From Chytriomyces cf. hyalinus JEL632 (Eukaryota > Chytridiomycota > Chytridiomycetes > Chytridiales > Chytriomycetaceae), in contig JAIWWG010000127.1 in the NCBI GenBank assembly GCA_025435555.1, positions 1 to 64,000 of the forward strand: 64,000 nt of DNA, given 5' to 3'. Below, piece by piece: positions 19,272 to 53,505 of the stretch (within the stretch, counting starts at the first letter, position 1; each line of letters opens with the position of its first letter). Both the position numbers and the translations under genes were made by a program. Below the pieces are notes generated by a model. It saw only the letters and a program-made list of their open reading frames with translations. It made no database searches and was not told the DNA's origin.

Positions 19272-21584
19272 TCACATTCTTTCTTCACCAGTCTCACTAT
19301 CAATACTATGCAACGACTGGGAATCAGTTTCAGCCTCCCACCGAAAGTTCCCCCCTGATGGTGTTCGAAAACGCCCCGGCAAATTTCCGACTAAACGATT
19401 CCCGCTTAAATCCAGTAACTTCAACCCGCCACAACCAGCGAGCGACTTGGGAATCAACCCTCTAAATCGGTTGTTGCTTAAATCAAGTGTCTTGATTCGT
19501 TGCATACGTCGAAACAACCCGCGGGGCAGAGTCCCGATGAAATGATTGTTGCTGAGATTCACGCTCTCGGCGAATGCACACGACGATATGAGCTCAGCAA
19601 TATGGCCCGAAAACTGATTGTGACTGAGATTCAAATGCATTATCGTTAAAAGCTCTCGAGTGCCCGTTGGCAAGCGACCCGACAGTTGATTGTGATCCAA
19701 TTTCAGTGTGCTTATCTCCAGAATTCTTTCCGGTATGGGACCAGTCAATTGATTATGGCCAAGGTTTAAATGGTGTAGGCTTGCCAAAGTTCCAATGTCT
19801 GGATGCATGCGACCAAAGAGCTGGTTGTGACTGAGATCCAAAGACCGCAAAACATGAAGTCTTCCAATTGACTCTGGAAGTTGACCAACAAAGCGATTGT
19901 GACTGACATCCAACAACTCCAAAACACGGAGGCTTCCAATTGACTCTGGAATTTCACCAACAAAGCAATTGTGACTGGCATCCAACAACTGCAAAACATG
20001 AAGGCTTCCAATTGACTCTGGAATTTCACCAACGAAGCGGTTGTGACTGATGTTAAGGACCTTGAGAGAAGTCAGGAGTCCAATTTCCGCAGGCAAACAA
20101 CCGTCAAGCTCGTTGTGTTGCAGCTTCAGACGAGTGAGATTTACCAGCGATGTGATTGAATCCGGAATGCTGCCAACAAACAAGTTCCGGCTGAGGTCCA
20201 GCTCTTCCAACGTGACAAGATTGGATATAGAATCAGGAATTACACCAGAGAATTTATTCCTGCGCAGAAACAGGCATTTCAAATTTGGAAACTCTCCGAT
20301 TTCAGTTGGAAATGGACCATCGAGATAATTGTCATCCAGGTAAAGGTGCTGCAGGGTTGTCAGCGCTGTGATATATTTTGGAAGTCTCCCAGACAGTTCA
20401 TTGCGTGACAGTCTCAGGTATGAAAAAACCTGTGAAACTCCATTGTCCAGGCCTGCATACGTGTCCATTTCGAGTTGATTCGACAAGACATTCATTGACT
20501 GGAGATCAAGCGACGCTGGCGGAAAAGATATCGTTCCAGATTCACGATCCGAGTCAGGATGAAGAATTGCAGTCAGCGGCGTGCCTTCCAATCCAACGAA
20601 TTGGACGCTGGCATTGTCACCTGGCGAACTACCCGAGATCAGCGAGTTTCGATCAAGGGTCAATGTGCGAAGGAATGGCAGTCGGAATATCGATTCGGGG
20701 ATTGACCCTGAAAGTCCACTCAAGTCGCACCGTAGTACTATCAGTTGCATGCATCGACCAATGGATTGCGGTATCGGCCCTTCCAAGCGGTTGCGGCTAA
20801 ATACCAACATTTGCAGCTTTGTCATCCCTGCAAACACATCTGGCACCGTGCCTGAAAGCTCGTTTCTCTCAAGGCTCAACTCGACCAAATTGACCAAATT
20901 CGCAAAACTCGCGGGAATGGAGCCAGACAGCTCAGCACCGCACAAATTCAACACTTCCAGGCTGACTAGGTTTCCGAAACTGTCAGGTATCTCTTCGTGA
21001 AGATCAACGTGCGACAAACTCAGCTTCTTCAAGTTGATGAGATTGGCCAACTCCGCCAGAAAGAGGCCAGCCACGGTCTTCCCCATCACATCCACATTTT
21101 CCAGTGTTGCCATATTGCCAACACCGCGCTTCATGAGACTAACCTGGCCCCCAAAGTCCAGGGATGTCAATCTAGTCAGGCTTCCGATCCCGCTTGGCAG
21201 AGGACACGCTAAGCAGAAAGATTGAAAGCGGTTATTGATCCGAGACGGTAAGCTTTCAAACAGGGAGGCCTCGCTGGTAGCCGTGAGACGGTTGATTGGG
21301 TAAACATTCAGAGAGTCAACGGGAAACTTCCTAAAAGCGGCCCCAAATTGCACTTTTGCCAGGAAGTCCTTCCCAAAAGATGCTGGAGTAACGAAACAGC
21401 AGACTTCAAGTCGTCGTCGGTGCGCTTGCCCAATATGAACAAGGCCAAACAAGTTCGAGAAAGGACGCACTGTCAGCACGTTGTTGAGACAGCGGCAGAC
21501 TCGTCGGTACTTTGCGATATTGAATGGGCCCAGCAGCAGAAAGATATGCACCAATACTTCGACGGGTAATTCGTGCAGGTGCAT
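19272..21584 (-). CDS. F-box protein with plant-type leucine-rich repeats
   Basis: Intronless frame of 770 residues. Residues 1-45 form an F-box (MHLHELPVEVLVHIFLLLGP, then YRRVCRCLNNVL), which in this family contacts Skp1 in SCF ubiquitin ligases. From about residue 120 to 745 about 23 LRRs follow the plant-specific type LxxLxLxxNxLxGxIPxxI, e.g. LDLSRNLFVGSIPDSITSLV and LNLSHNQFSGHIAELI. There is no signal peptide or transmembrane segment, so it is probably intracellular, unlike plant LRR receptor kinases. Repeats between about 19832 and 20050 are nearly identical at the DNA level, showing recent LRR duplication. An F-box relic (17572-17790) and a 32-bp LRR scrap (42228-42259) are related. 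Confidence 0.85.
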   Translation of the reverse strand: MHLHELPVEVLVHIFLLLGPFNIAKYRRVCRCLNNVLTVRPFSNLFGLVHIGQAHRRRLEVCCFVTPASFGKDFLAKVQFGAAFRKFPVDSLNVYPINRLTATSEASLFESLPSRINNRFQSFCLACPLPSGIGSLTRLTSLDFGGQVSLMKRGVGNMATLENVDVMGKTVAGLFLAELANLINLKKLSLSHVDLHEEIPDSFGNLVSLEVLNLCGAELSGSIPASFANLVNLVELSLERNELSGTVPDVFAGMTKLQMLVFSRNRLEGPIPQSIGRCMQLIVLRCDLSGLSGSIPESIFRLPFLRTLTLDRNSLISGSSPGDNASVQFVGLEGTPLTAILHPDSDRESGTISFPPASLDLQSMNVLSNQLEMDTYAGLDNGVSQVFSYLRLSRNELSGRLPKYITALTTLQHLYLDDNYLDGPFPTEIGEFPNLKCLFLRRNKFSGVIPDSISNLVTLEELDLSRNLFVGSIPDSITSLVNLTRLKLQHNELDGCLPAEIGLLTSLKVLNISHNRFVGEIPESIGSLHVLQLLDASHNCFVGEIPESIGSLRVLELLDVSHNRFVGQLPESIGRLHVLRSLDLSHNQLFGRMHPDIGTLASLHHLNLGHNQLTGPIPERILEISTLKLDHNQLSGRLPTGTRELLTIMHLNLSHNQFSGHIAELISSCAFAESVNLSNNHFIGTLPRGLFRRMQRIKTLDLSNNRFRGLIPKSLAGCGGLKLLDLSGNRLVGNLPGRFRTPSGGNFRWEAETDSQSLHSIDSETGEERM
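19832..20050 (-). repeat. Tandem 72-bp LRR-coding repeats
   Basis: Three consecutive LRR modules of exactly 24 codons (SHNRFVGEIPESIGSL, SHNCFVGEIPESIGSL, SHNRFVGQLPESIGRL) are almost identical in DNA at 72-bp spacing. The CAAAGCxATTGTGACTG core recurs at 19889, 19961 and 20033. Such identity points to recent unequal exchange. Confidence 0.9.
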
Positions 21585-24095
21585 GTTGCTCGGTATATTT
21601 TTGTTAAACTTTTAACTCCTTTCCTCTTATCTTCAGAAGGGCCCTGCACCCAAAAAGCTCCGATCAGACACGAGCCAATTCATGTTCCTCGCTCAAAATT
21701 CACGGGAGATTTCGTTCATTCTTTCAAGCTTTATTTGGTCAGTGACTTGGCGGATGGATCATTTCACGTGGGGAAACGTGTTCAAAAAGAGTGTTTGATT
21801 TGGATACGTTGCTCAATTGCAGCGGTTGGCTTCAACGCAGAGTAATGATCGTGTGCAACAAGGCGAGTGAGCAAAACGAATCAGATCCTGTTTGAAATCC
21901 TTTAAGGCAGCCATTCTCAACTATGACAAGGCACGGCAATGTAGTACACAATAAACTGGCAAGTTATTCGCCTGAAAATAAGGACTTTCGCATTCGACCA
22001 ATACTATGCCGCTGTCGGAGCAATTGTCATCACGTCAAACGCCGGCCAATCTAACCCATCATCATAATCTCCTTAGAAATTTCCACATCGCGGAGTCGAG
22101 CGATAATACTGCAGGTTCATCGCACCAAATTATTCGAAACTCTGGAGCCAAGAAAAAACTGCGCAAAGGAAGCTTGATCGATTTGGGCATGTCGTCGCTG
22201 GTTTTGAGTATGGCTCCTGAACTTTTGAGGCTCAATGGATTGCAACGCCAGCTCAAAGAATCAATGAAAGTGCACTCTGATCAAGCAATTTCCAACGGCG
22301 TTGAATGGAGCACTTTGAGCTGTGCCAGGATAATCCAAATGCCGCAAAGCTAATCACGGATGGTGAGGGCCTCTCCATTGCGCCCTTTTTTTCGCAGGCA
22401 AGCTCAACTGAACGATGATTTGAAGCCGGAAAAAATGACGGGCAGTGTGTGAAGACGGAATAACCCGCCTTTGTATTGCTCCCAGTCTGGAAGATCACGG
22501 AAATTCCTCTCGAGCTGCAGTTACACGCGCCATTTTCAAAGCAGGTTTGAGGACAGCAATGGACAAACCCTGCTGACCACGCACTTGATATTCGACAGCG
22601 TCCGAATCTTCGAATCCACAAGGAGAAGTTGGAAAGGAATAATGGCACCAAGAGGAAAAATAAGGCGATGAGGAACGAGGCAGGTGCGTCCGTTATGGAT
22701 AATGGAGCACTTGTCGCGCAAGCGTAGCATAGCACCGGCACCGTATGTGGGCATGAGAGGGTCGGCTTTCAACGAGACGAGCGCGCGTACGATGAGTCTT
22801 GCAGCGTTGATATGTGAAATAATTGAATACATCGATCCATGCCATTGTTATCGAGCTTTGAGGGTGGAAGCGAGGTCCGCATGAAGGAGATGAGAGTCGT
22901 GTCTGCAGGGAGTAACGAACGAGAGAGAGGGAGAGTGAGAGACAACGAGAGAAATCGATGATGAGACAAGATTCTACCACGAGAGACGTCGGCAATCAGA
23001 CAAGACACCACGAGAGAGGTGTCAGAATGAGACGGAGTCCCAACATGGAATATTTTCACGATTTACTTTACCAAAAGCAGCGTGATAACTGCAAATATAT
23101 CCCTCCAAGTCTCACACGGAACACGCTTTATCCTGCTCTTTTCACCCAGGAACAATGAACAGCGACCATGGCCGGATTTTATTAACACTTTAATCTCTCA
23201 GTTACTTTCAAAGCGGCATGAGCGATGAGTAAAAATCAAAACACAGCCAGTTGTTCAATGCGAAACAAATTCTTTGCCATCCAATCCAACGCGCACTGTC
23301 CAGAATCAGAATCAGAATCATATTCAGAGACGGGTTCGGATTCGGATTCAAACTCAGGTTCAGATTCAGAATCCGTTTCTTGTTCATGTTTTAGTTCTTG
23401 TTGTTGTTCAAGTTCTGAATCGGAATCAGGGAAGTATCGGACATTTGGAACCCTGCCATGCTGGCGGTGACACCGAAAAACTCCTTTTGCTTGCTTTCTT
23501 TGAGGGTCAGGACCCACACACATTGATGGACGAAACACGACGCTGCTGCTTCATCATGGTCGAGACCGTTGCAGAAGCTGTGTCTGGAGTGGCTGCTTTT
23601 TCAGACTTCTTGGTGTTAATTACCTTGGTCCAGATGTCGTGTCTGATCTGCTGTTGAAGTCGTCAAATTATACAAAGCAAAGCACGGTCACTTCCTCACT
23701 TATTCACGCTGGAAGACGATACCTGCTGTGCACCCCATTCCAGTCCAAAGTGCCTCTATTCAAATTATTCGCAACTGGAATGCTGTGTCGAAAATGGACA
23801 CCGCCGGATGAACTCTGCGTCAAAACAAAAGCCGAACCTCAGCGAAAGCTGGCGTTGGCTGCTCCAGGAACCGAAACATCCCGGCAGAACAATGACCAGA
23901 AACTAATTGAAATAGTTGACTTCATCCGTGGCCGATTCATTGCTCGTCAAATTGAGCATTCCTCAGCGCGTCACCGTTGCAGAATATTCTGAAGCCAACC
24001 TCAAGCTTTTACAAAACGTTATGCTTGGGTCAAAGTTGCAACGCCATTCGTTTGCTTGCAGTATTTCTCGTTGAAGGAGTGTTATATGGGACCTG
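21585..24095. other. Gene-poor stretch upstream of the F-box/LRR gene
   Basis: No family was recognised. A + frame at 22006-22353 (115 residues, KKKLRKGSLIDLG) and another at 23639-23992 (QNNDQKLIEIVDFIRGRFIA) may be small unknown genes or exons. Purine-rich GAGAGA sequence fills 22920-23030, with an imperfect repeat of AGACAAGA...CCACGAGAGA. The left target-site copy of element 1 (TTCAT, 24096-24100) closes the stretch. Confidence 0.35.
23295..23440. repeat. Hexamer-like (TCAGAA/TTCGGA)n tract coding Ser/Glu/Asp repeats on -
   Basis: Degenerate 6-bp units run for about 145 bp. Read on - they give SDSELEQQQ, then ESEPEFESESEPVSEYDSDSD inside an open frame (23236-23538). It may be part of an acidic disordered protein or simply a microsatellite that happens to be open. 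Confidence 0.5.
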
Positions 24096-24100
24096 TTCAT

Positions 24101-24291
24101 TGTTGAGTTTTTGTGAAAGAGTGTTCTTTATTCGTCCGAACATGCCGTGTTAAATACTTAAAATAAAGTCCGATAGAAATGTAATAAGAGAAAACCGGTG
24201 GCTAATGAACGACAATAAAACAATCTCATGAACCACCCAAGTGCCGCCCAACAATCTCATGAGCGGGGCACTGACGCTGGGGATTCCAACA
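24101..24291 (-). repeat. 3' LTR of element 1
   Basis: 191 bp, equal in length to 36777-36967 and identical by eye. Read on - it starts TGTTGGAATCCCC directly after the polypurine tract GTAGGGGGAG, and it ends CTCAACA next to the TTCAT duplication. Confidence 0.95.
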
Positions 24292-24440
24292 CTCCCCCTA
24301 CCCGGCGACGCTGGTCTCCAACCCCATCGCGGCTCGGAACCTCTCGAACTCGCTTGGTCCTTTTGACTTGGTAAGTCCATCCGCCTTCTGATCTTTGGTA
24401 GGTATGAACACTAACTCAATGTTATGTTCCTTGATAGCTT
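24292..24440 (-). pseudogene. Element 1 RNase H C-terminal tail, cut off by nested insertion
   Basis: On -, from the insertion point the frame reads AIKEHNIELVFIPTKDQKAD then LTKSKGPSEFERFRAAMGLE, and a stop just before the polypurine tract. It is the direct continuation of the RNase H piece that ends FVREA at 32763. The duplication AAGCT (on -) lies at the join, so the two pieces were contiguous before element 2 inserted. Confidence 0.9.
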
Positions 24441-24861
24441 TAAGAGTGACCAATGCCCCCTGGTGGTGGTGACAGTTGAGCGAAGGGGGAGCGAGTGGGA
24501 GCGAGCGAGCCAGCGAGCCAATTTACCTGGTGGTGGTGACAGTTGAGCGAAGGGGGAGCGAGTGGGAGCGAGCGAGCCAGCGAGCCAATTTACTGAAAGA
24601 TCGGTCGATATTTATTTCACTGTTTACACGCAATCATATAGATCAAGAAAGGAGGAGATCGTACCCTGGTGGTGGTGACAGTTGAGCGAAGGGGGAGCGA
24701 GTGGGAGCGAGCGAGCCAGCGAGCCAATTTACTGAAAGATCGGTAAATTGGTCGTGACAGCTCTCACTTCCCATTCACCATCACCAGGGGAAAAATTATA
24801 AATAAAAAGGACCAATCAAAGCTGCTGAGCCAGTTGAAAACGTCGGGGTGCATCCGACACA
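24441..24861 (-). repeat. 3' LTR of element 2, with three internal 67-bp repeats
   Basis: 421 bp, matching 32342-32762. Inside, a GC-rich module starting CCTGGTGGTGGTGACAGTTG recurs at 24459, 24526 and 24665; the first two are tandem at 67-bp spacing. On -, a TTTTTATTTATAATTTTTCC stretch near 24790-24810 may carry the promoter. Confidence 0.93.
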
Positions 24862-24873
24862 CACCCCCCCAAA
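24862..24873 (-). promoter_or_regulatory. Polypurine tract of element 2
   Basis: On - it reads TTTGGGGGGGTG directly before the 3' LTR and just after the Gag-Pol stop. This is the expected place for plus-strand priming. Confidence 0.75.
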
Positions 24874-24876
24874 TGG

Positions 24877-27800
24877 CTAGGCAGTAATGCTTTCTTCGCC
24901 AAAAGCGCGACGACAGTCTGTGAATTTCGTCGATCCAACGCCTTTTGTAAGAATATCAGCCCACATAAGAGGGTCGGGGCAGTGGCCAACAGTAATAAGG
25001 TTCTGACGAACTTGATCCCGTAGAAACGCATACTTGATGTCGAGGTGCTTGGTTTTGTGCCTGAGTGCCCCCTCCTCCATGTTAAAGACTGCCCCTTTGT
25101 TATCAGTCCACACTTGTGACGGCACTTCCTGCGGATGACCCAACCATTCGAGCATGTTTCGAACCCAGATAACCTCTTTCACCAGGGAGCATGCAGCAAT
25201 CACTTCAGCAGAGACAGTCGAGTCAGCAACTATTGGCTGACGCTTGCTGAAGCTAAGAACTGCTGATGTCCCTACACGAACCAAAACTCCTGTTGTTGAC
25301 CGCCGAGTGTTTACGTCACCAGCAAAATCAGAATCTGAGTATCCCTCCACCACCAGCTTGCGACCAGTGCGTTTGAAACATAGACCGTGATCTCGAGTGT
25401 TGTTGAGATATTCGAGTAATTCCTGAGCAGCTTTCCAGTGGATGATTCGAGTATTAGTTGTGTGTCGCGCTAGCTTTCCCACAGCATACTGGATGACAGG
25501 GCGAGTCACAGTTAAAAATTGGAGTTTGCCCACTAGTCTGAAATAATTGCGGTCTTTCATGAAGTGGAGGTCATCGTGGCTCGGATCACACACTGCATCA
25601 AATTCCTTGTCGTTTACTGAGCGATAGGGCTGGGTTCGCCTGCCGTATGGGTTTTCGAGGAATTCATCCAGAATGTTCTCCAGATAAGCAGCCTGGTTGA
25701 GTGTGGCTTGCCCTTCCTGGAACCTGAATACAATACTGATGAACTGATCCACCTTGGGCTTGACTGTCATCTTGAAATGCTTGGTCCCGAGGTCCGAGAT
25801 GAGTTCGTCCAGCTCTGCCTGAATCTCCCGATCTGCTGCCCACGCAAAATCATCTGCCCATACCAGCACCAATATGAGCCTTTCCACTCCCTCTTTGACA
25901 ATCACCTTTTTGAAGATCATTGGTTCGTGTGGACATCGCTGCATTCCCATCATTTCCAAAGCCTTGTCCCGTTTGAGTTCCCATTGCCTCGAAGCCTGCT
26001 TTTGCCCATACATGGCTTGCAGCAACTCCAACACCTTTCCCTGGTCTTCTGGAGCCACCTCCATTCCCTGCGGTATCTTAATGTGCATAACGCGATCTCG
26101 ATCTGCCACTAGGTGAGCCCCCATAGCATCTGATTGCCTTGTCACCATTTTGCGCTCCACCACTTCCACTGTCCACAGTTTGAGGGAGTGCATGTATGGA
26201 GTTGAAGCATGAGTCTTGTCGTAGTCTTCGCCGGCCACTTGTCTCCTACCGTCGAGGACCAGACGAGCTTTGTACTTGGTCTCCCCAGTGGTGTCATCCT
26301 TCTTGACTTTTAGAACCCAGATGGTGTTGAGAGTTTTCGCCCCCTTTGGCAGCCTGACTAGCCGCCAGACTTTGAGACCCCAGAACTGATCTAGCTCCTT
26401 GTTGATGGCTTCCTTCCACTTGGGGTCTTTGAGTCCCTCTGAAATGCGTGGGCCATTTAGAGTTGACAGTGCAAGTTGGTTGTGATTTCCCACTTCTTCT
26501 AGAGTTCCGTCTGTGACGGACAAAAGTGCCTCTCGTTCTTCATCTGAGAATCCATCATTCCCGAGCGTACGGCTCCATGCGGGCATCGGTCCAGTGCGAG
26601 ATCGTGTTGCGCGGGGTGCAGGTGTTGGAGTTGGTGGGGCGCTTCCTTCCGATTGAGTGCCTGAATCCTGCTCGTCCTCTGTGAACAGCTCGTTGAATGG
26701 TGTTACTGGTCCATCATTTCCCCCTCGTTCAGATCCAAATGCTGTGTGGTACTCAGATTCAGGTGAGTTCGGCAAGTCCAGGCGTGGAGGGGATTCGCTA
26801 TCGATATCCTTTTCACCCCCTTGACTATTTTGTGTTGAGTGGTGTTCAAAAATCAGAGACTGAGATTCCGGATTATTTCGAAGAAGACCCCAGTTTCGAC
26901 GTTTTTTGAGGTTTGTTGAAATCGCCTCCGGCGCTTGGGGAGCTCCATTATCGTGGCGAAAATCGGCCCAGGAGAGAGTCTTGACTGGATTGTGGAGAGG
27001 ATTCACATTGCTTGGGTCAAACTGATCCTCTATGAAGGCCACATCTCGGCTGACCACAACAGAATAGGGATCACCATCTCGAGTGAGAATGCGATAGCCT
27101 GGGTTTTCACGTCGAGGTTGCCATGGATAGTTAGAATGACCAATGTATCGGCCCTTCACTGCTCGGGGACTCGATTTGCCCTCTGTGCGATTCTTTGGAA
27201 GCTCGTATGCGTACGCAACACAGAAAAGCGTCTTCAGATCACGAACTGTTGGCTTGGATCCAAATAGAGCTTCGTGTGGTGTGATGGTATCCTCTTTGTG
27301 CAGAAAAGAATTGTAGATTTCAGCTTGGTGGTTGAGACCATCAACCCAGAGATTAGTTGGAGCATTTGCCTGGATGGTCAAAGCACGGTGTCTGTCCATG
27401 GCAATGCGGTGGTATCCCTCTTCCATTCCAAGTGACTGAGGCTGTTCTGTCCCCGTGTTGACATACGAGACTCCACTCTCTCGGCATGCTTCAAGAAACC
27501 AAGTTGGGTAATTTTCACCGCCTTTGTCAAGGGACCATGATCTGAGCTTTTGTCCAGTAGTTCTCTCCAACCATTGTTTTGACCACTGATACAGCTTGGC
27601 AGCTTTGGCTTTGCTGTCAACTCCAAAGCCAAAACGATATCCTAACGCATTTCTGACCGTGAGAGTCAGATAACAGCTGCTCCCCCCAAGTGACTTGTTG
27701 TTGTGTGAGAACACCATCAGATCTGCAGTCACGACTTCGAGCAGTTTGTCCGGCAGGTAACGCGCACCTAGAGATCGTGGGTGTGGAAGCCGGTACATCT

Positions 27801-29658
27801 TGGCCAGGACACAAGCTTCACAGTTGCACGCCACTTCTGTATCATCGGTCTTGTCTGATAGCATGAGATCCAGACCGTCTGCAGCTGCAAGCCGAAATGT
27901 CCGTTCAAGAGCCTTGTCTCCAATGTGGGTACGATTGTGCCATACAAGGTTCCTTGTCTTCCAAGATGGAGCAACCACTAGCGCTGGTTGAGGGGAATGC
28001 TTGATTGTGATGGGAAATAACCCTCCCTTTTTGAAACCTTTTGCAAACACTTGTCGTGGTCCATCTGCCGGGAAATATCCAATGCTTGCACTCATGTCAG
28101 AGTGATCAAACAAGACACTGTACTTGTTCTTGGTAAGGACGTCGTTGACACTTAGCAGATTGTGGGTGGCATGTGGTGTGTGCTCGATGGGAGGAGTAGT
28201 GTACACTACTGGAACTGCTGAGGTGCCTGATATAGAGCCCTCACGACCGCTCCCTGCAATCCTGCCCCCATTTATCCCACTCCATGTTGTAGGAATGCAA
28301 GGTGTTTGTGCAAACGCTGGATGGTTTCCCAGTGAACCTGATGCTGCTGAATCCAGATTGAGCGTGATTGGGTCCTCCCTTGAAATGGACAGAGCATACG
28401 CATCCATGTTGTTTATTGGGAGAAACACGAAACCCAAAGCTTGATTAGCAACGCCTTGCTTGGGCTGGTTCCCACGATTTTCCGACTTGACCATGACCAC
28501 TGGAACGTTTTCTCCTGAAGTCCGTGAAAATGCCAGATTCTTGCACCCAATGGCTTTTGCTGCTGCTTCAGCACTTTCAAAAGTCACCCAGGCCAGTCCT
28601 GACGGCTTTCCATCAGATCTGGTACCAATAGAGATGCGTGTCGTTGGTCCGAAATTTTCCATTGCTGCTTTGAGAGTCTCCTCTGAGATATTCCACAGCA
28701 GCTGACGAACAAACACTTCATTTTTATCCCTCTCTCCCCGGCTTGCCGGCACCATCCAAGTCCCACCAGCCGGATTTCTTGAACGGGTCCCAACTTTTGA
28801 GGCAGCACGCTCCACCTGAAGTGCCGCTCCTGATACCAGAGAGTCCATCTCCCCACGCTGGGCTTGGACCTGACGAATTTCTGCTGCCTCGAATTGCAAG
28901 AAAGCCTTCATAGTGGTCACAGTCTTGCAGGGATTTGGTGTGCCATCATCCTTGAGGTTTCGAAGAAACTTGTCCTTGTACACTTTGAAGTCTTCTTCTT
29001 TGAGTCCGAAACGCAGACGATTTCCCCACTCAAGATGTTGGGCCTCATGACCAATCGCATCTGGGAAACCATAACGAGCAAGACGGATAATGAGATCATC
29101 AGCTCGCACCATATATTCCAGTGGCGTCTCATGTGGCAACTGTGTTATTTTGATGAGCTTCTCACGGAGCGTGTCGATCATGAGCTGCTTGTCGTGATTG
29201 ATTTCCTGCATTAAAACGTCCCAGCGTTGCTTCACTGTCGATGGGCTTGTAGGGTCCTCCATAATAAACTTGGCCAGATCGTCATCGAGATGTTGGCGAA
29301 CCAACTTGGTGATGTCTGCTTGGATGGATCTGAAGCCCCGAGCCTGTGTCATGAAATCGCTATTGTCCTCTGCTTTGGCCTCACGAGCAGGGACATACGA
29401 CAAATTCAACGCCGGATTTGGCAGCTGCTCGGCTCGGGCAACAACAGCAGGCCGTGCGGGATACTCGTCTTGGAGTGGAGCCGGCATGTCTCGATGGATG
29501 AAATCCGTAATGTCCAGTGGATCCCCATGTCTGTATCCTTTTGGAAACTCGATGGCTGAGTTGAGTTCGAGAAACAATTCCGCCGCCCATTTTGGAAAGG
29601 CTTCGATGCCGTCTTTTCGGGTAAGGAGGTTGATTTTGTTGGTCGGCTTGGGTGCCAT
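24877..29658 (-). CDS. Copia Gag-Pol polyprotein with RRM domain in Gag (element 2)
   Basis: Single frame of 1593 residues. Gag-like helical region at 1-290. An RRM spans about 314-392: RNP2-like VFVRQL at 315-320 and RNP1-like KPSGLAWVTF at 351-360. It lies where copia Gag normally has a CCHC knuckle, and I see no CCHC. Protease-like LDSAAS at 435-440, in place of DSGAS. Integrase HHCC (HNRTHIG..., CNCEACVLAK) with core D-D-E in TADLM, SLDKGGEN and EEGYHR. The reverse transcriptase has QSDAMGAHL and active site VWADDF at about 25849-25860, where YVDD is usual. RNase H: DSDFAGD, SAEVIAA, WTDNKGAV, ending LTKGVGSTKF. The start at 29658 is the only Met near the leader. No frameshift separates Gag and Pol. 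Confidence 0.92.
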   Translation of the reverse strand: MAPKPTNKINLLTRKDGIEAFPKWAAELFLELNSAIEFPKGYRHGDPLDITDFIHRDMPAPLQDEYPARPAVVARAEQLPNPALNLSYVPAREAKAEDNSDFMTQARGFRSIQADITKLVRQHLDDDLAKFIMEDPTSPSTVKQRWDVLMQEINHDKQLMIDTLREKLIKITQLPHETPLEYMVRADDLIIRLARYGFPDAIGHEAQHLEWGNRLRFGLKEEDFKVYKDKFLRNLKDDGTPNPCKTVTTMKAFLQFEAAEIRQVQAQRGEMDSLVSGAALQVERAASKVGTRSRNPAGGTWMVPASRGERDKNEVFVRQLLWNISEETLKAAMENFGPTTRISIGTRSDGKPSGLAWVTFESAEAAAKAIGCKNLAFSRTSGENVPVVMVKSENRGNQPKQGVANQALGFVFLPINNMDAYALSISREDPITLNLDSAASGSLGNHPAFAQTPCIPTTWSGINGGRIAGSGREGSISGTSAVPVVYTTPPIEHTPHATHNLLSVNDVLTKNKYSVLFDHSDMSASIGYFPADGPRQVFAKGFKKGGLFPITIKHSPQPALVVAPSWKTRNLVWHNRTHIGDKALERTFRLAAADGLDLMLSDKTDDTEVACNCEACVLAKMYRLPHPRSLGARYLPDKLLEVVTADLMVFSHNNKSLGGSSCYLTLTVRNALGYRFGFGVDSKAKAAKLYQWSKQWLERTTGQKLRSWSLDKGGENYPTWFLEACRESGVSYVNTGTEQPQSLGMEEGYHRIAMDRHRALTIQANAPTNLWVDGLNHQAEIYNSFLHKEDTITPHEALFGSKPTVRDLKTLFCVAYAYELPKNRTEGKSSPRAVKGRYIGHSNYPWQPRRENPGYRILTRDGDPYSVVVSRDVAFIEDQFDPSNVNPLHNPVKTLSWADFRHDNGAPQAPEAISTNLKKRRNWGLLRNNPESQSLIFEHHSTQNSQGGEKDIDSESPPRLDLPNSPESEYHTAFGSERGGNDGPVTPFNELFTEDEQDSGTQSEGSAPPTPTPAPRATRSRTGPMPAWSRTLGNDGFSDEEREALLSVTDGTLEEVGNHNQLALSTLNGPRISEGLKDPKWKEAINKELDQFWGLKVWRLVRLPKGAKTLNTIWVLKVKKDDTTGETKYKARLVLDGRRQVAGEDYDKTHASTPYMHSLKLWTVEVVERKMVTRQSDAMGAHLVADRDRVMHIKIPQGMEVAPEDQGKVLELLQAMYGQKQASRQWELKRDKALEMMGMQRCPHEPMIFKKVIVKEGVERLILVLVWADDFAWAADREIQAELDELISDLGTKHFKMTVKPKVDQFISIVFRFQEGQATLNQAAYLENILDEFLENPYGRRTQPYRSVNDKEFDAVCDPSHDDLHFMKDRNYFRLVGKLQFLTVTRPVIQYAVGKLARHTTNTRIIHWKAAQELLEYLNNTRDHGLCFKRTGRKLVVEGYSDSDFAGDVNTRRSTTGVLVRVGTSAVLSFSKRQPIVADSTVSAEVIAACSLVKEVIWVRNMLEWLGHPQEVPSQVWTDNKGAVFNMEEGALRHKTKHLDIKYAFLRDQVRQNLITVGHCPDPLMWADILTKGVGSTKFTDCRRAFGEESITA

Positions 29659-29725
29659 GTTTTGATGTTTCGTTGTGGTTCAGTGCTCAATCAGTGACTG
29701 TTCAGACTCTTAATCTAAGAGTGAC
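29659..29725 (-). other. Leader of element 2 with start of the LINE target duplication
   Basis: On -, the sequence after the LINE duplication (GTCACTCTTAGA at 29714-29725) runs ATTAAGAGTCTGAACAGTC and reaches the Gag ATG within 70 bp. The first bases after the original LTR end should hold the primer-binding site; I could not assign it to a tRNA by eye. Confidence 0.55.
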
Positions 29726-32351
29726 GTTTTCAGTTTCTTTTAATCAAGTTACACAGTAACACACGTGCGGGGTTGAAAGATAGCAAAAATCACTCAAAAA
29801 AAGTTCAGAAACTCCAAAGAATCAGAAGTAGGGTGCGGAAATGTTAAGAAAACAGATGATCGGTAAAGGTAATAAGATACGTATGGTCAGTTCGGGCTTG
29901 GCGGTTGATTATCCAGGCTCCGGGTTTTGCCGTGGTCGCCCAAGCGGGGCTCCCCCGGGTTGAGGTATGCGATTTCGCGGTCTTCGAGGCGGCAGTGGTC
30001 GTGCGGGTGCATCTGGCTCGGCCCAGTAGCCATTGGCTTGCTGTTGGAGGTGGCGACATTCGGTGTAGATGAGAGCTACGGCAGAAGAGACTTCGGTGTA
30101 CGTGTCGATTTCGGAGGGCGGTGTATTCCGGACTTCATTCAGGATCGTATCAAGCCAGGTCATTCGGCCGGCAGGAGGTGCAAGCGTGTCCCAGTTGATG
30201 CGCAGGAGAGCAGTGGCACCAGAACAGTCAGCAGCATGGGATCGGGTCAGTACGTCGTTGCACTTGAGGCACGGTTCGTGTCGGGTGACGGCACCAAGAG
30301 TCCAGCGAAGGATGTTGTTGCGTGTCTTGCGGTCAATTCCCTTGCAGGCAGTCAGATACGGCCGGACTGGGTCTTTGGTTTCGACTTGGATTGCGCCAGC
30401 AATGGTGTCCAGGTTGTTGTCCAGGTTGACGATGGATTCCTTGCGCAGCTTCTTGCGAGCATTGTCAGACAGCGCTTGTTTTGGCTTCGGAGGGTACCGG
30501 AACGGAACTTCAGCTGGAGGTGGGGGAACCAGTGGTTGCTGTCGAAAATCAATCCATTTAGCATCCACATGAGTCACAAGTGGGTTGGAGCGAGCAAGGC
30601 GGGGAAGACATTCCTGAAATGGTTTGTCAGCACCAAGCAGAGCGCCGCGCCAGAAACGAACAGCCGGGATAGAACGATCAGTTGAGTTATGCAATCGGGA
30701 GGACCACATGAGATTGAGCTCGGTAGCACGGTGTTTGAATGGTTCGACTTGCAGCAGCTTGTGGAGAGCGGCAGTGGACGTGTTGCGGGGTGTTGATGTG
30801 AGAGTCCGTAGTGCAAGACGTTGGACCGACTCGTACAACTTGAGCGTGGACGCGGATGGGAGCTTGAGAGCAATGCCATATTCAAGAACCGGCCGAATGA
30901 AACTCCTGTAGATAGTAACAGAAGCTGCAGGAGCCCAGCCCATTGCATTCATACCTACCGACGCCAGCGCCACAATGACACCACGCGCTTTTGAAGTTCG
31001 TTCCTTTGCCAGCAGAGCCCAGTTGATTCCGTGTTGGCCAAAAGGGATGCCGAGATACGGGGCACATTGCTGGGATGGAAGGTCCACGTTGTAGAGCTTG
31101 AGAGGTACATCACGTAGTGCTGGAACAGGACCGAGATAGATGCACTTGGATGGCGAGAACCGGATGCCGACAGTGTTGGACCATTCCTCACACGTTCGGA
31201 GCAGGACTGCGAGATCATGTTGATTTGCAGCTACCAAGGACGTATCGTCTGCAAACAGGAGGTTATTGAGATGGATACCGTTGATTCGAATTCGCGGGAT
31301 TCCAGGAGCACGTAGCCGAATTGAGAGACCATGGATGTGACAGTTGAACAAAATCGGGGACAGAGTAGCACCCTGCAAAAGACCTCGTTCGTTGTCAATC
31401 GGATCACTAATCACGCCAGCCACCACCAGACAGCACGAGTTGTGATCGAAAAGATCCTGGAGCCGTGCAAGCATGAATTCGTCCAGGCCGAAGACTTGTG
31501 TGAGCATTTGCCAAAGAACCCTTCGATCGACTTCGTCATATGCCGCTTTGATGTCCAGCAGGATAGTCGAAGCATGTTCATTGGTGTTCAGGGTTTCGTG
31601 GAGAACCATGGCTTGATCGAGCGAGGACCGACCGGGTCTGAAGCCACCTTGAAAGTCATCGAGTTGTTGCATTACGGGTCCAAGTTCAGGAACAAGCAGC
31701 CGCTCGTAGAGTCGTCGTATCGTACACGTCAGTGCAATGGGTCGGTAGTTTGCAATGTCCTGATCAGATCCCTTCTTCTTGAAGACTGGCACAATGAGCG
31801 CCTTCCTCCAGTCAGATGGAATAGTTGCAGCAGCATGGACCATGGGCAGAAAAACACTGAGAACGTCAGCCATGAGATCGCCACCGGCTTTGATGAGTTC
31901 AGCAGGAATTCCATCGGATCCAGTAGCCTTTCCGAGTGGGAGTCCAGCAATCGCAGCCATGATCGCATCCGGGTTGAAGACTTCCTGAGTTGGACGCGAC
32001 TGGATTTCCTCAAGCGCAGGGGGTCCAGGTTGGGGATGTCCAGTCGGAGGTGCTCCAAAGGTAGTTCGAAAATGGGCAGCGTGTTCATTGATTTTCGCCG
32101 GGTCCAGTTTGCAGACAGTGCGGTCTTTTCGCGACTTGGCTCCTTTTACCATGCGCATGAACGAGGACATGTTTTGTGGGACTGTGAGCTTATCGACAGC
32201 ATCTTCGAAGAGCACGCGCTTGCGTGTGGTCAGATCCGCCCGGTAAGCACGCTGAGTGTTGGTCAGTTCGGAAGCAAGGCGTTTGATTTCGAGACGAGAC
32301 AACTGGCCACGCTCGATTTCCTGTTGCACGTTCGCAAGTTCTAAGAGTGAC
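29714..32351 (-). mobile_element. 5'-truncated LINE inserted at the LTR/leader boundary of element 2
   Basis: The 12-bp sequence TCTAAGAGTGAC (+) stands at both 29714-29725 and 32340-32351, flanking 2614 bp of unrelated sequence (29726-32339). The right copy overlaps the last ten bases of the 5' LTR of element 2; the left copy precedes its leader. The insert carries a non-LTR reverse transcriptase on -, ends in an A-rich tail (TTAAAAGAAACTGAAAAC), and lacks the endonuclease and ORF1. A long target duplication, 5' truncation and A-rich end are what target-primed reverse transcription leaves. Confidence 0.93.
29909..32339 (-). pseudogene. LINE reverse transcriptase ORF, N-terminally truncated
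   Basis: About 800 codons of open frame end at 29909. Reverse transcriptase blocks are in order: GKATGSDGIPAELIKAG, IVPVFKKKGSDQDIANYRPI, GGFRPGRSSLDQAM, LLDIKAAYDEVDR, GLLQGATLSPILF and the active site LLFADDTSLV. Behind it is a Cys/His cluster CLKCNDVLTRSHAADC. The 5' end runs straight into the LTR of element 2, so the endonuclease part was never inserted. The first codons of the apparent frame (before 32339) come from LTR sequence. No stop interrupts the remaining frame, suggesting a young copy. Confidence 0.88.
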
Positions 32352-32762
32352 CAATGCCCCCTGGTGGTGGTGACAGTTGAGCGAAGGGGGAGCGAGTGGG
32401 AGCGAGCGAGCCAGCGAGCCAATTTACCTGGTGGTGGTGACAGTTGAGCGAAGGGGGAGCGAGTGGGAGCGAGCGAGCCAGCGAGCCAATTTACTGAAAG
32501 ATCAGTCGATATTTATTTCACTGTTTACACGCAATCATATAGATCAAGAAAGGAGGAGATCGTACCCTGGTGGTGGTGACAGTTGAGCGAAGGGGGAGCG
32601 AGTGGGAGCGAGCGAGCCAGCGAGCCAATTTACTGAAAGATCGGTAAATTGGTCGTGACAGCTCTCACTTCCCATTCACCATCACCAGGGGAAAAATTAT
32701 AAATAAAAAGAACCAATCAAAGCTGCTGAGCCAGTTGAAAACGTCGGGGTGCATCCGACACA
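32342..32762 (-). repeat. 5' LTR of element 2
   Basis: 421 bp, matching 24441-24861. The differences I see are an A for G in GATCAGTCGAT and in AAAAAGAACC. The outer end abuts AGCTT; the inner end is now followed by the LINE instead of the leader. Confidence 0.93.
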
Positions 32763-35121
32763 AGCTTCTCTTACGAATGTGGTCTTCCCGAGCATGTGTC
32801 TTGTACGGTCGTTGATGATGGCGTTTCTGCTTGAAGCTATGGCCGCCTGGTTATCCTCATAGATGGTGGTTTTGACACCCGATACACCCAAATCGGTAAG
32901 TAACTCTCTTAGCCACATCACCTCCTTGATGACATCTACTAACGCATTTACTTCTGCTTCCATCGATGATAGTGCTACCAACTTCTGTTTCCGGGATCTC
33001 CAGCTGACTAGGTTCCCTCCGATGAACACTGCATGTCCACTCACTCCGTATGCTCCCTCGCTGAGATGACTGGCATCGACCCACGCCTCGATTGAGTTCT
33101 CCTTTCCGGTCCTGTACGTTAGTTCCAGTCCTTTTGTGTTCACCAAGTACCCGGTCAATCGTTTCAACGCTGTCCAATGTGGTTCTGTTGCTCTTGATGC
33201 GAATCGCCCCAGGTAAGCTGTTGCGTATGTTATGTCGGGTAGATACTGACGCGTACATTACTGCACCCAACAGGCTCCTGTATTGTTCCATTGTTGGTTC
33301 TGCTGTTCCATCTGGTAGTTTGACTCCGGTTTCCAGTGGCGTCCGGTACTTTGTGTTTTCCAGCTTGTATCGTTGTCCAATCGATTGGATGTAGCTCTTT
33401 TGTTGAAAGCTTGCCTTGCCGCCCTTCCAGTCGTACTTGATGACCGATCCGAGTAAGGTATGTATCTCCCCCATAAACTTGACTTTGTACTTGTCGACTA
33501 AGTGTCCTTCCACCCATTTTCGTAGTTCTTCGTTGTTTGTGGCGACTAAGATATCATCCACGTATAAGGTAATTAGCAACTTGCTCCCATTTCTTTGAAT
33601 TCTGAATAATCCTGGATCCGACACCGACTGTTTGAATCCAATGCTAACCAATGTTCCCTTGAATTCCTCGTTCCACAGGTAGCCTCCTTGCTTCGTTCCA
33701 TAAAGCCCTTTCAAGAGCCTTAGCGCGTGTCGCTTTCGATCAATTTGTGGGTCCAAGAGTTCGTAGCTGTCTGGGATCCGGATCACGACATTGAAGTCCA
33801 TTTTCGAGTTAAGGTAAGCTGTTACGACATCCATTTGTGTGATGCGGTACTCCTTTGCTAATGAAACACTTATTAATACTTTGATTGTCGTAGATCTTAC
33901 CACAGGTGCGAATGTCTCATCGTAGTCCACTCCTTCCACCTGGGTGAATCCTCGAACCACAAGTCGAGATTTGTATTTCTCAAATACTCCTGCTGCGTCC
34001 TGCTTCTGCTTGTGCACCCACTTAGTATCTGCAATATTTTCGGTAGGTTCCTTCCTCAGGTCGATCACTTCCCATGTCCCATTTTCGACTAATGAGTTTA
34101 GCTCGTCCAGGATTGCGGCCTTCCATTTCGCAGCATCGTCCCTCTCCAGAGCCTCTGCAATCGATCTTGGTTCTTCTGTTATTGCTGAAAACGCGTAAGT
34201 CGCTTTTCGCTGTCTTCCACTTTCAATGATGTTTGACTGATCGACTGATGAATTGATGTCTTTTGCAGCGACCTTGTTTCTTGGCTCAATTACTCGTTGC
34301 GTTCGGTCTGGTACGGCCGTCTTTGATCTCGGTGCTTGGACTTGTGATAGCTGTCTTAGTATTCTGATCGGTGATGGGCTGCGGGGTTCTGCATCCTCGT
34401 CTGAGTCTCGGTTTACTGGCTCCGGCGTATGTTGCCTATGTGGTTGGGTTGCTTCTTGTTGTTCTGGTGGAGGGTTTCTTGCTGTTGGTTTTCTTACCGG
34501 TTCAGCTTGTTCATTTTCCTCGTCTTCGGAGTCTGAAAGTAACTCAGGTAGCTCTTCACGTGGTGTCTTTGCGTCGGAGTCTTGATCTTGCTTGGGGAAT
34601 TTGACATGGATGGATTCGAACACTCTGCCGTTGCTGGTTTCTTCTAGTAAGTACCCTTTCCCCTTGATTCCTAGGACCCTACACTGAACTCCCTTGCTGT
34701 CTAGCTTTCCGCGCTTGTGTCCATCGACGTACGCCACACATTTTTCCCCGAATCGCCTCATGTATTTCAAGTTTGGCTTCTTTCCCGTCATGGCTTCGAT
34801 TGGAGTCATGCTGCTGGTTGTCGATCGTGTCGGGCATCTGTTCCTGATGAAGACTGCCATCTCAAGTGCGTATATCCAGTAGTTTTCTTTGTCCATTTTT
34901 GCATCTGCTAACAATGTCCTGCACATTTCTACTACGGTAGGGTTCTTTCTTTCTGCGATCCCATTTTGTTCTGGTGTGTACGGTGTTGATACATTGTGTT
35001 TAATTCCGTTTGCTTCGCACCACCTTATGAACTTGCTGTTGATGAATTCGCCTCCTCCATCGGACACGATTGACTTCAATTTGTGGTTATACTGAGTTTC
35101 AATCGACCATGTTGCCCTCAA
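32763..35121 (-). pseudogene. Element 1 integrase (part), RT and RNase H, frameshifted
   Basis: Read on -: integrase core remainder (SIVSDGGGEF, TPYTPEQNGIAERKNPTVVE), then RT (NGTWEVIDLRKEPTENIADT, QMDVVTAYLNSKMDF, LYVDDILVATNN with a normal YVDD), then RNase H (LTGYLVNTKGLE, WVDASHLSEGAYG, LSSMEAEVNALVDVI, YEDNQAAIASSRNA). RT and RNase H are in different frames: near 33240 one base is missing in ACCCGACATAACATACG, where the family pattern TRPDITYA would need one more. The 3' side is cut at 32763 by element 2. Confidence 0.9.
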
Positions 35122-35148
35122 TGAATATAAGTCAAGTTGTCTACCATC

Positions 35149-36726
35149 TCATGGCAATGCAATCAAGTAAACATATGCAGGTTTGAGGAAAAAAGCAATT
35201 TCCAATGTGATGATGTCAAGAATTCCTTGAAGTGCGTCGCTTTTCTTTCCTAGGATCTTCGCGAATGTGCATCCGCTTCCGGTGTCTGATACCATGAGGA
35301 CTGGCATTCCATTCACAAAGGTAAGATCTAGATTCAATTCTTCTCCAGGTGTTTCAACTGTCTCTGATTTCTCCTTTCCGACTTTCCTAGTGGCTTTTGA
35401 TTCCATGCATGTGCTGCAGTCTCCGAGCTCATTGTCCTCCAGTGTTATCCCGTCAGCTTGTTCGCATAATTTCCGTAGGTCTCCTGCATTCAAGTGGCCC
35501 ATGAGACGGTGAGCTTCCTTCATTGTGAGTTCCCTGTTCATTGATGACTGTGATGTTAATCCAACTGCATTTTCCTTCAAGGTGTAGAGTCCTTCACGGA
35601 TATCAGTGGCACGGAGGATGATCTTCCCGTCTATCGAGACTGAAGCACCCTTTTCATTGAAGTTCACAGTCGCACCTTTCATGCTGAGTGCAGAGATCGA
35701 CAGAAGGTTCACTGATAGTTCAGGTACGTAGAGAACCCCTGTGATTGTGATTGTTCCGTCCTCACCAATTAGATCAACAGCTCCTACTCCCGTGATTTCG
35801 AACTGGTCGCCGCTTGCTACTGTGATTTTCCCGAGGTTGTCCTTGACTGTTAGATTCTTGATGATTTCCTTGTCGCCCGTCATATGGTTGCTTGCACCGG
35901 AATCCAGTATCCAGTCGCCGTCTGCTGATTTGATTTTTGCTGCGGTGAGTACATAGTTTCTTGATTTGTTCACTTGGTTTGCTTTCTTCTCATCGTTATG
36001 CTTTTCTTTTTGCTTTGGTCCTTGGCCTTCCTTGTCGCCACCTTTGCCCCAACAATCCGTCTTCTTGTGGCCCTTTTTACCGCAATTGTTGCATTTGCCT
36101 TTGAATTTCTGTGCACTCTGTTTCGCCTGCATGGCTACTCCTCTGCTGTTTGAGGGTTTCTTTGCTTTGTCACTAACTCTCCAGCTGTGTTCTCCGTGGA
36201 TCTCTGCTTTGAATTTCGCGTATGTGCTCATGACGTCTGATCGGGTTCTCAGGCCTTGCAGGAACGTTTCCCATGACTCTGGTAGGTTACTCATAATCTG
36301 TATGATCATCTCCTTGTCTTTAACTTCTGACTCTTCATCCTTTAGCTGTCTTATGTATCGTTCCATGTCACTGATGAACTTATCGAAGTTGTCGCCATCT
36401 GCGTACGTAGTGTTCGTAAATGCTCGACGTGCTCGGATTGTCTGGTTGATCAAGCTTGCTTCTTCAAGTTCTTTGATGGCATCGAGTAGCTCCCTGGCTG
36501 TTTTCGCGCCTCTCAGTTGCTCGTGGAATACGAGCATGACTCTTTCTCCAATCTTTCCAAGGGCTTGCCTGTCCATCTTCTTCCATGCTTTCAGCTCGGT
36601 TGGGTCTTGTGGTGGGCTTTCTTCCAGGGTTTCTGCTAAATCTTTTCCCCTCAGGAAGTACATTAGCGCAGATTCCCAGTCGTGGTAGTTGGTTCCATCA
36701 AACATGACAATGTCGATTTTGCTCAT
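35149..36726 (-). pseudogene. Element 1 Gag, protease and integrase N-part
   Basis: Starting at MSKIDIVMFDGTNYHDWESA (36726; the frame is also open back into the LTR to 36819). Gag has a canonical knuckle CNNCGKKGHKKTDC near 36070. The protease motif WILDSGASNHMTGDK follows near 35900, then the pre-integrase HLNAGDLRKLCEQ and CSTCMESKATRK, then the integrase start ELNLDLTFVNGMPVLMVSDT. After QGILDIIT the frame runs through about 100 bp of unrelated sequence to a stop, and homology resumes at ETQYNHKLKSIVSD. A small insertion therefore breaks Pol here. Confidence 0.9.
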
Positions 36727-36776
36727 GGTAAGTCTTGGTTTTGGCTTGCTAGTTGGTAGTGCTGGTGCTGATAACG

Positions 36777-36967
36777 TGTTGAGTTTTTGTGAAAGAGTGT
36801 TCTTTATTCGTCCGAACATGCCGTGTTAAATACTTAAAATAAAGTCCGATAGAAATGTAATAAGAGAAAACCGGTGGCTAATGAACGACAATAAAACAAT
36901 CTCATGAACCACCCAAGTGCCGCCCAACAATCTCATGAGCGGGGCACTGACGCTGGGGATTCCAACA
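36777..36967 (-). repeat. 5' LTR of element 1
   Basis: 191 bp, identical by eye to 24101-24291. Directly inside it on - is CGTTATCAGCACCAGC, the position of the primer-binding site. TTCAT at 36968 is the target duplication. Confidence 0.95.
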
Positions 36968-52073: not shown

Positions 52074-53505
52074 ATGTTGAAACGGATCTCGGTCGCAGCA
52101 CGCGCAATGGCGTCGCACTCGTCGAACCCTGCAGCTCCACTTGCGGCGAATGTACCTCGCTCGCTGCTTGGCAGTGCGGCCGAGGACGCGGCGCTTGCGG
52201 CCGTTGCATCGAAATCGGCGCTGCGTTTCGACTGGTCCAAGAACGAGATTAAGCGCATTTACGATTCACCGCTGATGGACTTGTTGTTTTACTCGGTAAC
52301 TTATTCTGCGCTATTTATCTTGTTGGTCTTATCTTATTTATCGAACGACTTGCTCCATTACATCGTCTCTTTCAGTCCCTCGTCCACCGCAAATTCCACG
52401 ACGGAAGAGCCGTTCAGCAATGCACACTTCTCAGCATCAAAACCGGTGGCTGCTCCGAAGACTGCTCATACTGGTACGCAAAAACACACCCCGCGTGACG
52501 ATCATCACATCATCTCTGAACCTTCAAAAAAACAAATACAGCCCACAATCCTCAAAACACGCAACCACAGTCGAAGCAACAAAACTCATGAAAGAAGACT
52601 CCGTCCTCGCCGCCGCACGGAAAGCCAAAGAAGCCGGAAGCTCGCGTTTTTGTATGGGCGCTGCATGGCGCGACATGGAAGGCCGTAAAAGCAATTTCAA
52701 TAGTATCCTCGGTTACGTGAAGGAGATTCGTGGGATGGGGATGGAGGTGTGTTGCACTCTTGGAATGATTACGGGGACGCAAGCGAAGCAGCTGAAAGAG
52801 GCTGGACTGACGGCTTATAACCACAACTTGGACACGAGTCGCGAATTTTATCCCAAAATTATTACCACGCGGACGTATGATGAGCGGTTGGATACCCTTG
52901 CGCATGTCAGAGATGCGGGGATTAATGTTTGCAGTGGGGGAATAATTGGTCTCGGTGAAAGTCACGATGATCGCGTGGGCATGTTGCATACTTTGGCGAC
53001 TTTGCCGGAGCATCCAGAAAGTGTTCCCGTGAACGCTTTACTCGCCGTAGAGGGAACTCCTTTAGAAGCACAAGAGGTAACTTTGGTAGATCATCGAAAC
53101 CGTCATTGAAGTTGCTTACCCCTCACGACTATTCCAGCCCGTCAAAATTTGGGAAATGATTCGAATGATTGGTACAGCGCGTATTGTTATGCCCCAAACC
53201 ATGATTCGGTTGAGTGCCGGTCGCGTTCGGTTCACGCAACCAGAGCAAGCAATGTGCTTCATGGCCGGTGCAAACAGTATCTTTACCGGAGACAAACTCT
53301 TAACAACACCCAACAATGCGTACAATGACGACAAGGCCATGTTTGAAACGCTTGGTGAGTGTCCTTTGACTTGGGTCCCTCTCGAAAGACATACTGACTA
53401 TAAATTCTTTCAGGTCTGGTTCCCCTTGAACCAAAATCCGTCACTGCCAAAGACCTTGAAATCGAAATCCCCGCACCAAAGGCGCAAGACGAGATTCTGA
53501 TCTGA
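52074..53505 (+). CDS. BIO2: Biotin synthase
   Basis: Radical-SAM enzyme converting dethiobiotin to biotin, normally in mitochondria. Residues 1-50 are Arg/Ser/Ala-rich ([17 protein letters not shown]) and look like a targeting peptide. The radical-SAM cluster [10 protein letters not shown] is interrupted by an intron after the first two bases of its last Cys codon; splicing gives [17 protein letters not shown]. Then come [100 protein letters not shown] and [20 protein letters not shown]. The Cys and Arg ligands of the second cluster are present. The stop is at 53503-53505. Confidence 0.95.

Follow-up and report, generated by a model that had tools for sequence, protein, structure and literature searches.

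A Ty1/copia lineage from Chytriomyces with a predicted RNA recognition motif at the zinc-knuckle position of Gag

Introduction

The zinc-knuckle nucleocapsid is among the more constant parts of long terminal repeat (LTR) retroelements and retroviruses. This study concerns a copia element, here called element 2, whose Gag carries a predicted RNA recognition motif (RRM) and no CCHC zinc knuckle; it lies in a window of 64,000 nucleotides from Chytriomyces cf. hyalinus JEL632 (assembly GCA_025435555.1, contig JAIWWG010000127.1, positions 1 to 64,000). According to excerpts of PMC8396678, the zinc-finger nucleocapsid of retroviruses selects and packages the genomic RNA, and Gag of Saccharomyces Ty1, a member of the copia superfamily, lacks a zinc finger and binds RNA through a basic, disordered region. 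RRMs are well known in the ORF1 proteins of long interspersed nuclear elements (LINEs; types I–III), either alone or, often, joined to a CCHC motif or a coiled coil (excerpts of PMC4120745).

Element 2 shares features with each of these systems. Like Ty1, it has a copia-superfamily Gag without zinc finger, but with a folded RRM instead of a basic disordered region. Like the LINE ORF1 proteins, its Gag would be a retroelement RNA-binding protein built on an RRM; LINEs, however, are non-LTR elements, whereas element 2 has LTRs and its RRM comes after a capsid-like domain of copia type. The closest comparison is with CCHC-bearing Ty1/copia elements (element 1 of the same window and loci L050–L054), which likewise have RVT_2 after the integrase region, LTRs and 5-base target duplications, with a single-frame Gag-Pol in L050–L054. 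They differ in carrying CCHC in place of the RRM; in the reverse transcriptase (RT) catalytic box, most aligned relatives have V in place of A. Element 2 probably represents an old Ty1/copia clade whose Gag uses the RRM, in place of the zinc knuckle, to bind genomic RNA.

Among the titles and abstract openings listed for the open-licence literature, including that on chytrid LTR elements, none reports an RRM in the Gag of copia or other LTR elements; subscription journals and Repbase lie outside this scope. In the excerpted text of PMC3605345, PMC5348765, PMC4427930 and PMC7602945, the term RRM is confined to the reference lists. The excerpted main text of PMC3248453, on LTR retrotransposons in fungi, contains neither RRM nor zinc, and mentions complex fungal elements with additional domains for a supplementary figure. 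Within the literature covered, the RRM-copia clade is undescribed.

Results

An RRM in a copia-type polyprotein

Element 2 encodes its whole Gag-Pol in a single open reading frame (ORF; Table 1). In the Pfam scan, RVT_2 (residues 1096–1333) lies downstream of gag_pre-integrs (546–621, a weak match below the cut-off) and SH3_retrovirus (799–880). With RVT_2 after the integrase region, a pair of LTRs, a 5-base target duplication, a primer binding site and a polypurine tract, element 2 belongs to Ty1/copia (Pseudoviridae). From the N-terminus onwards, the predicted domains are capsid-like Gag, RRM, protease region, integrase region, RT and RNase H. The protease region is identified by motif only: no protease domain was matched by Pfam in the window polyprotein or in the related metagenomic protein P0003 described below. 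Near the expected place, the two proteins contain a D-S-A and a D-S-G motif, respectively, each a candidate protease motif.

The RRM_1 model (PF00076) matches residues 315–374 of the window copy with 38.6 bits (cut-off 20.7, E = 9.9e-10) and scores 50 bits in four sister copies; all four proteins scanned exceed the Pfam curated cut-off. A sequence-only reading of the window had placed an RRM-like unit at residues 314–392 (28483–28719), with VFVRQL as RNP2, and both assignments hold. Its RNP1, given as KPSGLAWVTF, is present, although the octamer proper is the SGLAWVTF within it. The predicted model of the domain comprises β1 (314–318), α1 (326–333), β2 (339–346), β3 (352–360) and α2 (363–371), followed by short strands at 376–378, 384–386 and 388–391. 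The β-α-β-β-α-β fold expected by the sequence-only reading appears in the predicted models of both the window RRM and the P0003 RRM, the last strand of the latter at a predicted local distance difference test (pLDDT) score of about 50 or less. The aromatic residues at RNP2-2 and RNP1-5 (F316 and W357 in the window copy) are kept in both families. In a PDB sequence search with the RRM, the top match was a poly(A)-binding protein (PABP), and nucleolin and PUF60 were also found; structural neighbours of the model include, among ties, the RRMs of PSPC1, NONO and SFPQ. The element RRM is of the kind found in splicing and poly(A)-binding proteins. It has its fold and RNP motifs in common with host RRM proteins (PABP, nucleolin, PUF60, hnRNP A1), but its identity to the matched RRMs of this genome does not exceed 34%, and it stands as a single RRM inside a polyprotein.

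Position in Gag and absence of CCHC

The Gag region preceding the RRM has no Gag match in Pfam. A profile built from three Gag sequences of RRM elements nevertheless aligned in hhalign with the pre-CCHC profile of 26 copia proteins (91% probability, score 49.8); the maximum among 40 column-shuffled profiles was 16.1, and the reversed profile scored 16.6. By this profile–profile alignment, element 2 has a predicted copia-type Gag capsid domain. The RRM lies between this domain and the protease region, in line with the placement proposed by the sequence-only reading.

Strict and loose CCHC regular expressions found no motif in the window polyprotein, in P0003 or in the two Chytriomyces confervae proteins P0001 and P0002, whereas element 1 yielded a single canonical CCHC, as the sequence-only reading had stated for the two elements of the window. 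CCHC is a usual though not a defining trait of Ty1/copia. A strict CCHC occurs in 34 of the 49 other relatives listed by the protein-database search, in four of these well away from the N-terminus. All five further copia elements sampled in this genome, out of 17 non-RRM stretches, bear CCHC.

In the RRM elements, the catalytic box of RT is WADD or HADD (window copy; P0003, at about residue 1132). Of the 46 aligned rows that have a residue at this position, 43 show V in place of A and one shows T. Over RT and RNase H, the RRM element is at most 32% identical to those non-RRM relatives that cover most of the query, among the matches listed.

Retention, selection and relatives

The genome searched comprises 37.8 Mb in 242 contigs. 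With the best candidates scored, it contains at least four full-length copies, including that of the window, which are 99–100% identical, one having a stop codon. Further copies, as lower bounds, are a fifth without start codon and degraded pieces at 54–92% identity. The RRM is kept in all ten listed genomic places that span its site, although stops or splits affect some of them; the Pfam cut-off is passed by nine, the tenth being split.

When a young copy is compared with four old copies, the ratio of nonsynonymous to synonymous rates (dN/dS) of the RRM is 0.13, 0.21, 0.23 and 0.27, values that for old copies include neutral decay after insertion. They resemble those of Gag residues 1–290 (0.19–0.31) and the protease region (0.12–0.28) and lie below those of the Pol linker (0.38 and 0.42). 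RRM differences common to all old copies present are synonymous in nine cases and nonsynonymous in five, whereas synonymous sites make up 24.6% (one-sided binomial p = 0.0019, with sites treated as independent). These comparisons point to evolution of the RRM under purifying selection.

Related elements occur beyond this genome. Two database proteins of C. confervae (P0001 and P0002) carry the RRM in Gag, and the best long match of P0001 in the present genome is 88% identical, so that this genome probably belongs to another Chytriomyces strain or species. The metagenomic copia protein P0003, with an overall identity of 34%, also has an RRM; its domain order is that of the window polyprotein, with gag_pre-integrs above the cut-off and a weak rve match (E = 0.034). 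A protein-database search with the RRM alone (residues 306–396) matched only P0001 and P0002, and scans of viral contigs and prokaryote genome contigs with the polyprotein alignment found no relative. In the RT tree, the three RRM rows that have an RT form one clade with 100/100 support. The sequence-only reading had suggested looking for other copia elements of the same domain order and building RT trees, and both lines agree with its interpretation. RRM-copia is a lineage and not one odd copy, because the ten genomic places, the purifying selection, the C. confervae proteins, P0003 and the RT clade all speak for it.

The window copy and its sister copies

The window copy had been described as intact. 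Its ORF is indeed open, but a LINE-like insertion separates the 5' LTR from the primer binding site and so interrupts the element. The open frame of this LINE-like element extends into the LTR, so that it looks 5'-truncated. Copies without the insertion occur elsewhere in the genome; compared with a near-identical sister, the window copy differs at four residues, two of them within the RRM. A repeat search for LTRs in 23500–31500 returned nothing but a tandem repeat inside one LTR. Because the insertion displaced the 5' LTR, the LTR pair emerged only from a wider-region comparison with sister copies. Both flanks of element 2 read as copia RNase H-end protein, and we therefore read element 2 as lying nested within the 3' portion of element 1 (CCHC copia, 32697–36819). 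The earlier description of element 1 as a neighbour is right in that the two adjoin, and is refined by this apparent nesting.

LTR pairs bound three sister copies, and every one of these copies has a 5-base target duplication of its own; one pair of LTRs, 421 nt long, is identical. The family therefore appears to have moved recently. LTR length ranges from 215 to 493 nt across loci L002, L003, L004 and the window copy, through tandem units of 68 and 139 nt. The two LTRs are unequal in L002 (493/354) and L004 (282/215), and equal in L003 and the window copy.

The 14-mer of the primer binding site occurs 45 times in the genome, RRM-copia copies included, and the pattern read backwards does not occur. 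ARAGORN predicted tRNA-Lys at three of ten scanned 14-mer loci; six of the other seven are copies of other repeats. RRM-copia may thus be primed by a half-tRNA derived from tRNA-Lys(CTT), similar to the half-tRNA mode reported for Drosophila copia (excerpts of PMC5371799). Other repeats of this genome, some of them copia-like (L041, L045–L049), contain the same tRNA-Lys(CTT) anticodon-loop motif.

Table 1 Features of element 2 in the window
Feature	Position	Strand	Basis or remark
Target-site duplication AGCTT, left copy	24436..24440	.	
3' LTR, 421 nt, internal tandem repeats	24441..24861	-	
G-rich polypurine tract adjoining 3' LTR	24864..24870	-	
Copia-type Gag-Pol, single ORF, 1593 aa	24877..29658	-	RVT_2 E 3.6e-36, SH3_retrovirus E 1.6e-7, RRM_1 E 9.9e-10
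Reverse transcriptase (RVT_2), residues 1096-1333, catalytic box WADD	25660..26373	-	
Predicted RRM domain, residues 314-392	28483..28719	-	
RNP1 octamer SGLAWVTF, residues 353-360, aromatic at 5 and 8, not 3	28579..28602	-	Sequence; RNP consensus
RNP2 VFVRQL, residues 315-320	28699..28716	-	Sequence; RNP consensus
Gag helical, capsid-like region (predicted), residues 14-257	28888..29619	-	hhalign against pre-CCHC Gag of 26 copia proteins, probability 91%, score 49.8
Primer binding site, complementary to tRNA-Lys(CTT) anticodon stem-loop	29702..29715	-	Directly after LTR in element order
LINE-like (RVT_1) insertion, foreign to element 2	29726..32341	-	10-base duplication 29716-29725 and 32342-32351
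5' LTR, 421 nt, parted from body by LINE-like insertion	32342..32762	-	
Target-site duplication AGCTT, right copy	32763..32767	.	

Other features of the window

Apart from the copia elements, the window contains an RNA ligase with a PHA02142 oligonucleotide-binding (OB) fold domain (58167–59240), a combination that resembles viral ligases. A Radical SAM domain ORF (52420–53109) and an F-box protein with leucine-rich repeats (770 aa, 19272–21584) are also present.

Discussion

The sequences and predicted models point to an RRM of recognised family and fold, located between capsid-like domain and protease region in a Gag without CCHC, retained under purifying selection and present in two deeply diverged families within one RT clade. 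The interpretation put forward in the sequence-only reading, an RRM in the place of the zinc knuckle, is supported, and neither of the two findings that it named as refuting, a model lacking the fold or a CCHC elsewhere in the same Gag, was obtained; packaging of genomic RNA and a host origin of the domain stay at the level of inference. In the proposed mechanism, the helical capsid-like domain of Gag is directly followed by the canonical-fold RRM and then by the protease region, so that the RRM would hold the nucleocapsid place otherwise held by CCHC in most copia elements. Since the RRM occupies this place with F316 and W357 on its sheet, the sheet may bind single-stranded genomic RNA. The helical domain would form the shell, with Gag assembling round the bound RNA, and the same RRM–RNA contact may promote dimerisation of the RNA or annealing of the half-tRNA-Lys primer ahead of reverse transcription.

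Several observations weigh against this interpretation. Both families lack an aromatic residue at RNP1-3 (L in the Chytriomyces-type family, C in P0003), the net charge of the RRM is nearly nil (9 K/R, 8 D/E), and the linkers flanking it in the window copy are just mildly basic. Moreover, 15 of the 49 listed relatives have neither strict CCHC nor RRM, and CCHC may therefore not be indispensable; two of these 15 have a shorter-spaced variant, and several are below 1,100 aa and may lack Gag. As for the capsid, the profile matches obtained from single Gag sequences were weak (15.4% and 5.6% probability), and the region is poorly modelled, mostly with pLDDT below 50 in the window copy and below 60 in P0003. 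No copia or Ty1 capsid was among the structure-search matches, which were filled by the RRM part and are uninformative on the capsid.

The RRM could serve a purpose other than packaging, contacting the host (messenger ribonucleoproteins, poly(A)) or other proteins, while dispersed basic residues hold the RNA. Ty1 Gag, which binds RNA through its basic region (excerpts of PMC8396678), offers a precedent, and the non-aromatic RNP1-3, the poly(A)-binding protein as top PDB match and the PSPC1, NONO and SFPQ RRMs among tied structural neighbours fit such a role. We consider it unlikely, as the aromatics at RNP2-2 and RNP1-5 are kept in two families, the position is that of a nucleocapsid, and no strongly basic stretch flanks the RRM in the window copy. 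The tail after the RRM in P0003 is more basic, with 5 K/R against 1 D/E in 31 residues. That the RRM is a chance match, or a neutral passenger inserted in just one copy, has a negligible probability and was rejected: nothing was found for it, and the E value of 9.9e-10, the fold, the ten genomic places, dN/dS of 0.13–0.27 and the second family all oppose it.

With regard to origin, the RRM may have been derived from a host RNA-binding protein. A donor was sought among the RRMs of this genome, where identity to the window RRM peaks at 34%; no donor can therefore be named. Derivation from a LINE ORF1 protein seems quite improbable. Such proteins commonly have RRMs, alone or before CCHC (excerpts of PMC4120745), and the window itself contains a LINE-like element, yet the general RRM_1 model scores best, the sequence matches are PABP, nucleolin and PUF60, and no LINE ORF1 model turned up in the Pfam tables, a result obtained without direct comparison with LINE ORF1 RRMs. 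Element 2 itself is not a LINE ORF1, which would be an ORF upstream of an RVT_1-containing ORF2 without LTRs; its RRM shares an ORF with RVT_2, and LTRs are present. Independent captures in the Chytriomyces-type and P0003 families are likewise unlikely. The P0003 RRM does match host RRMs of this genome slightly better (27.3 bits, 34%) than the element RRM (21.5 bits, 31%), but at about 75 residues the domain is too short to settle one against two captures. The shared slot, the lack of CCHC and of an aromatic RNP1-3, the monophyletic RT and the common xADD box stand against two events. On balance, position, absence of CCHC, RT monophyly and the non-aromatic RNP1-3 favour one capture, whereas the RRM sequences themselves do not.

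We tentatively propose, at somewhat less than even confidence, a fuller account: an undescribed copia clade may have swapped its zinc-knuckle nucleocapsid for an RRM once, long ago, and a sequence-reading RRM would pick the genomic RNA, combined with half-tRNA-Lys priming; within a retrovirus-like capsid, the clade would have converged on the solution of LINE ORF1 proteins. A swap to a folded RRM that lasted across deep divergence would mean that the recognition of RNA and the assembly of the capsid are modules that can be separated. Since an RRM often recognises a short sequence motif, packaging specificity would be testable in vitro. The RRM Gag would thereby be a natural experiment on how Gag chooses its RNA, and a case of convergence with the ORF1 proteins of LINEs.
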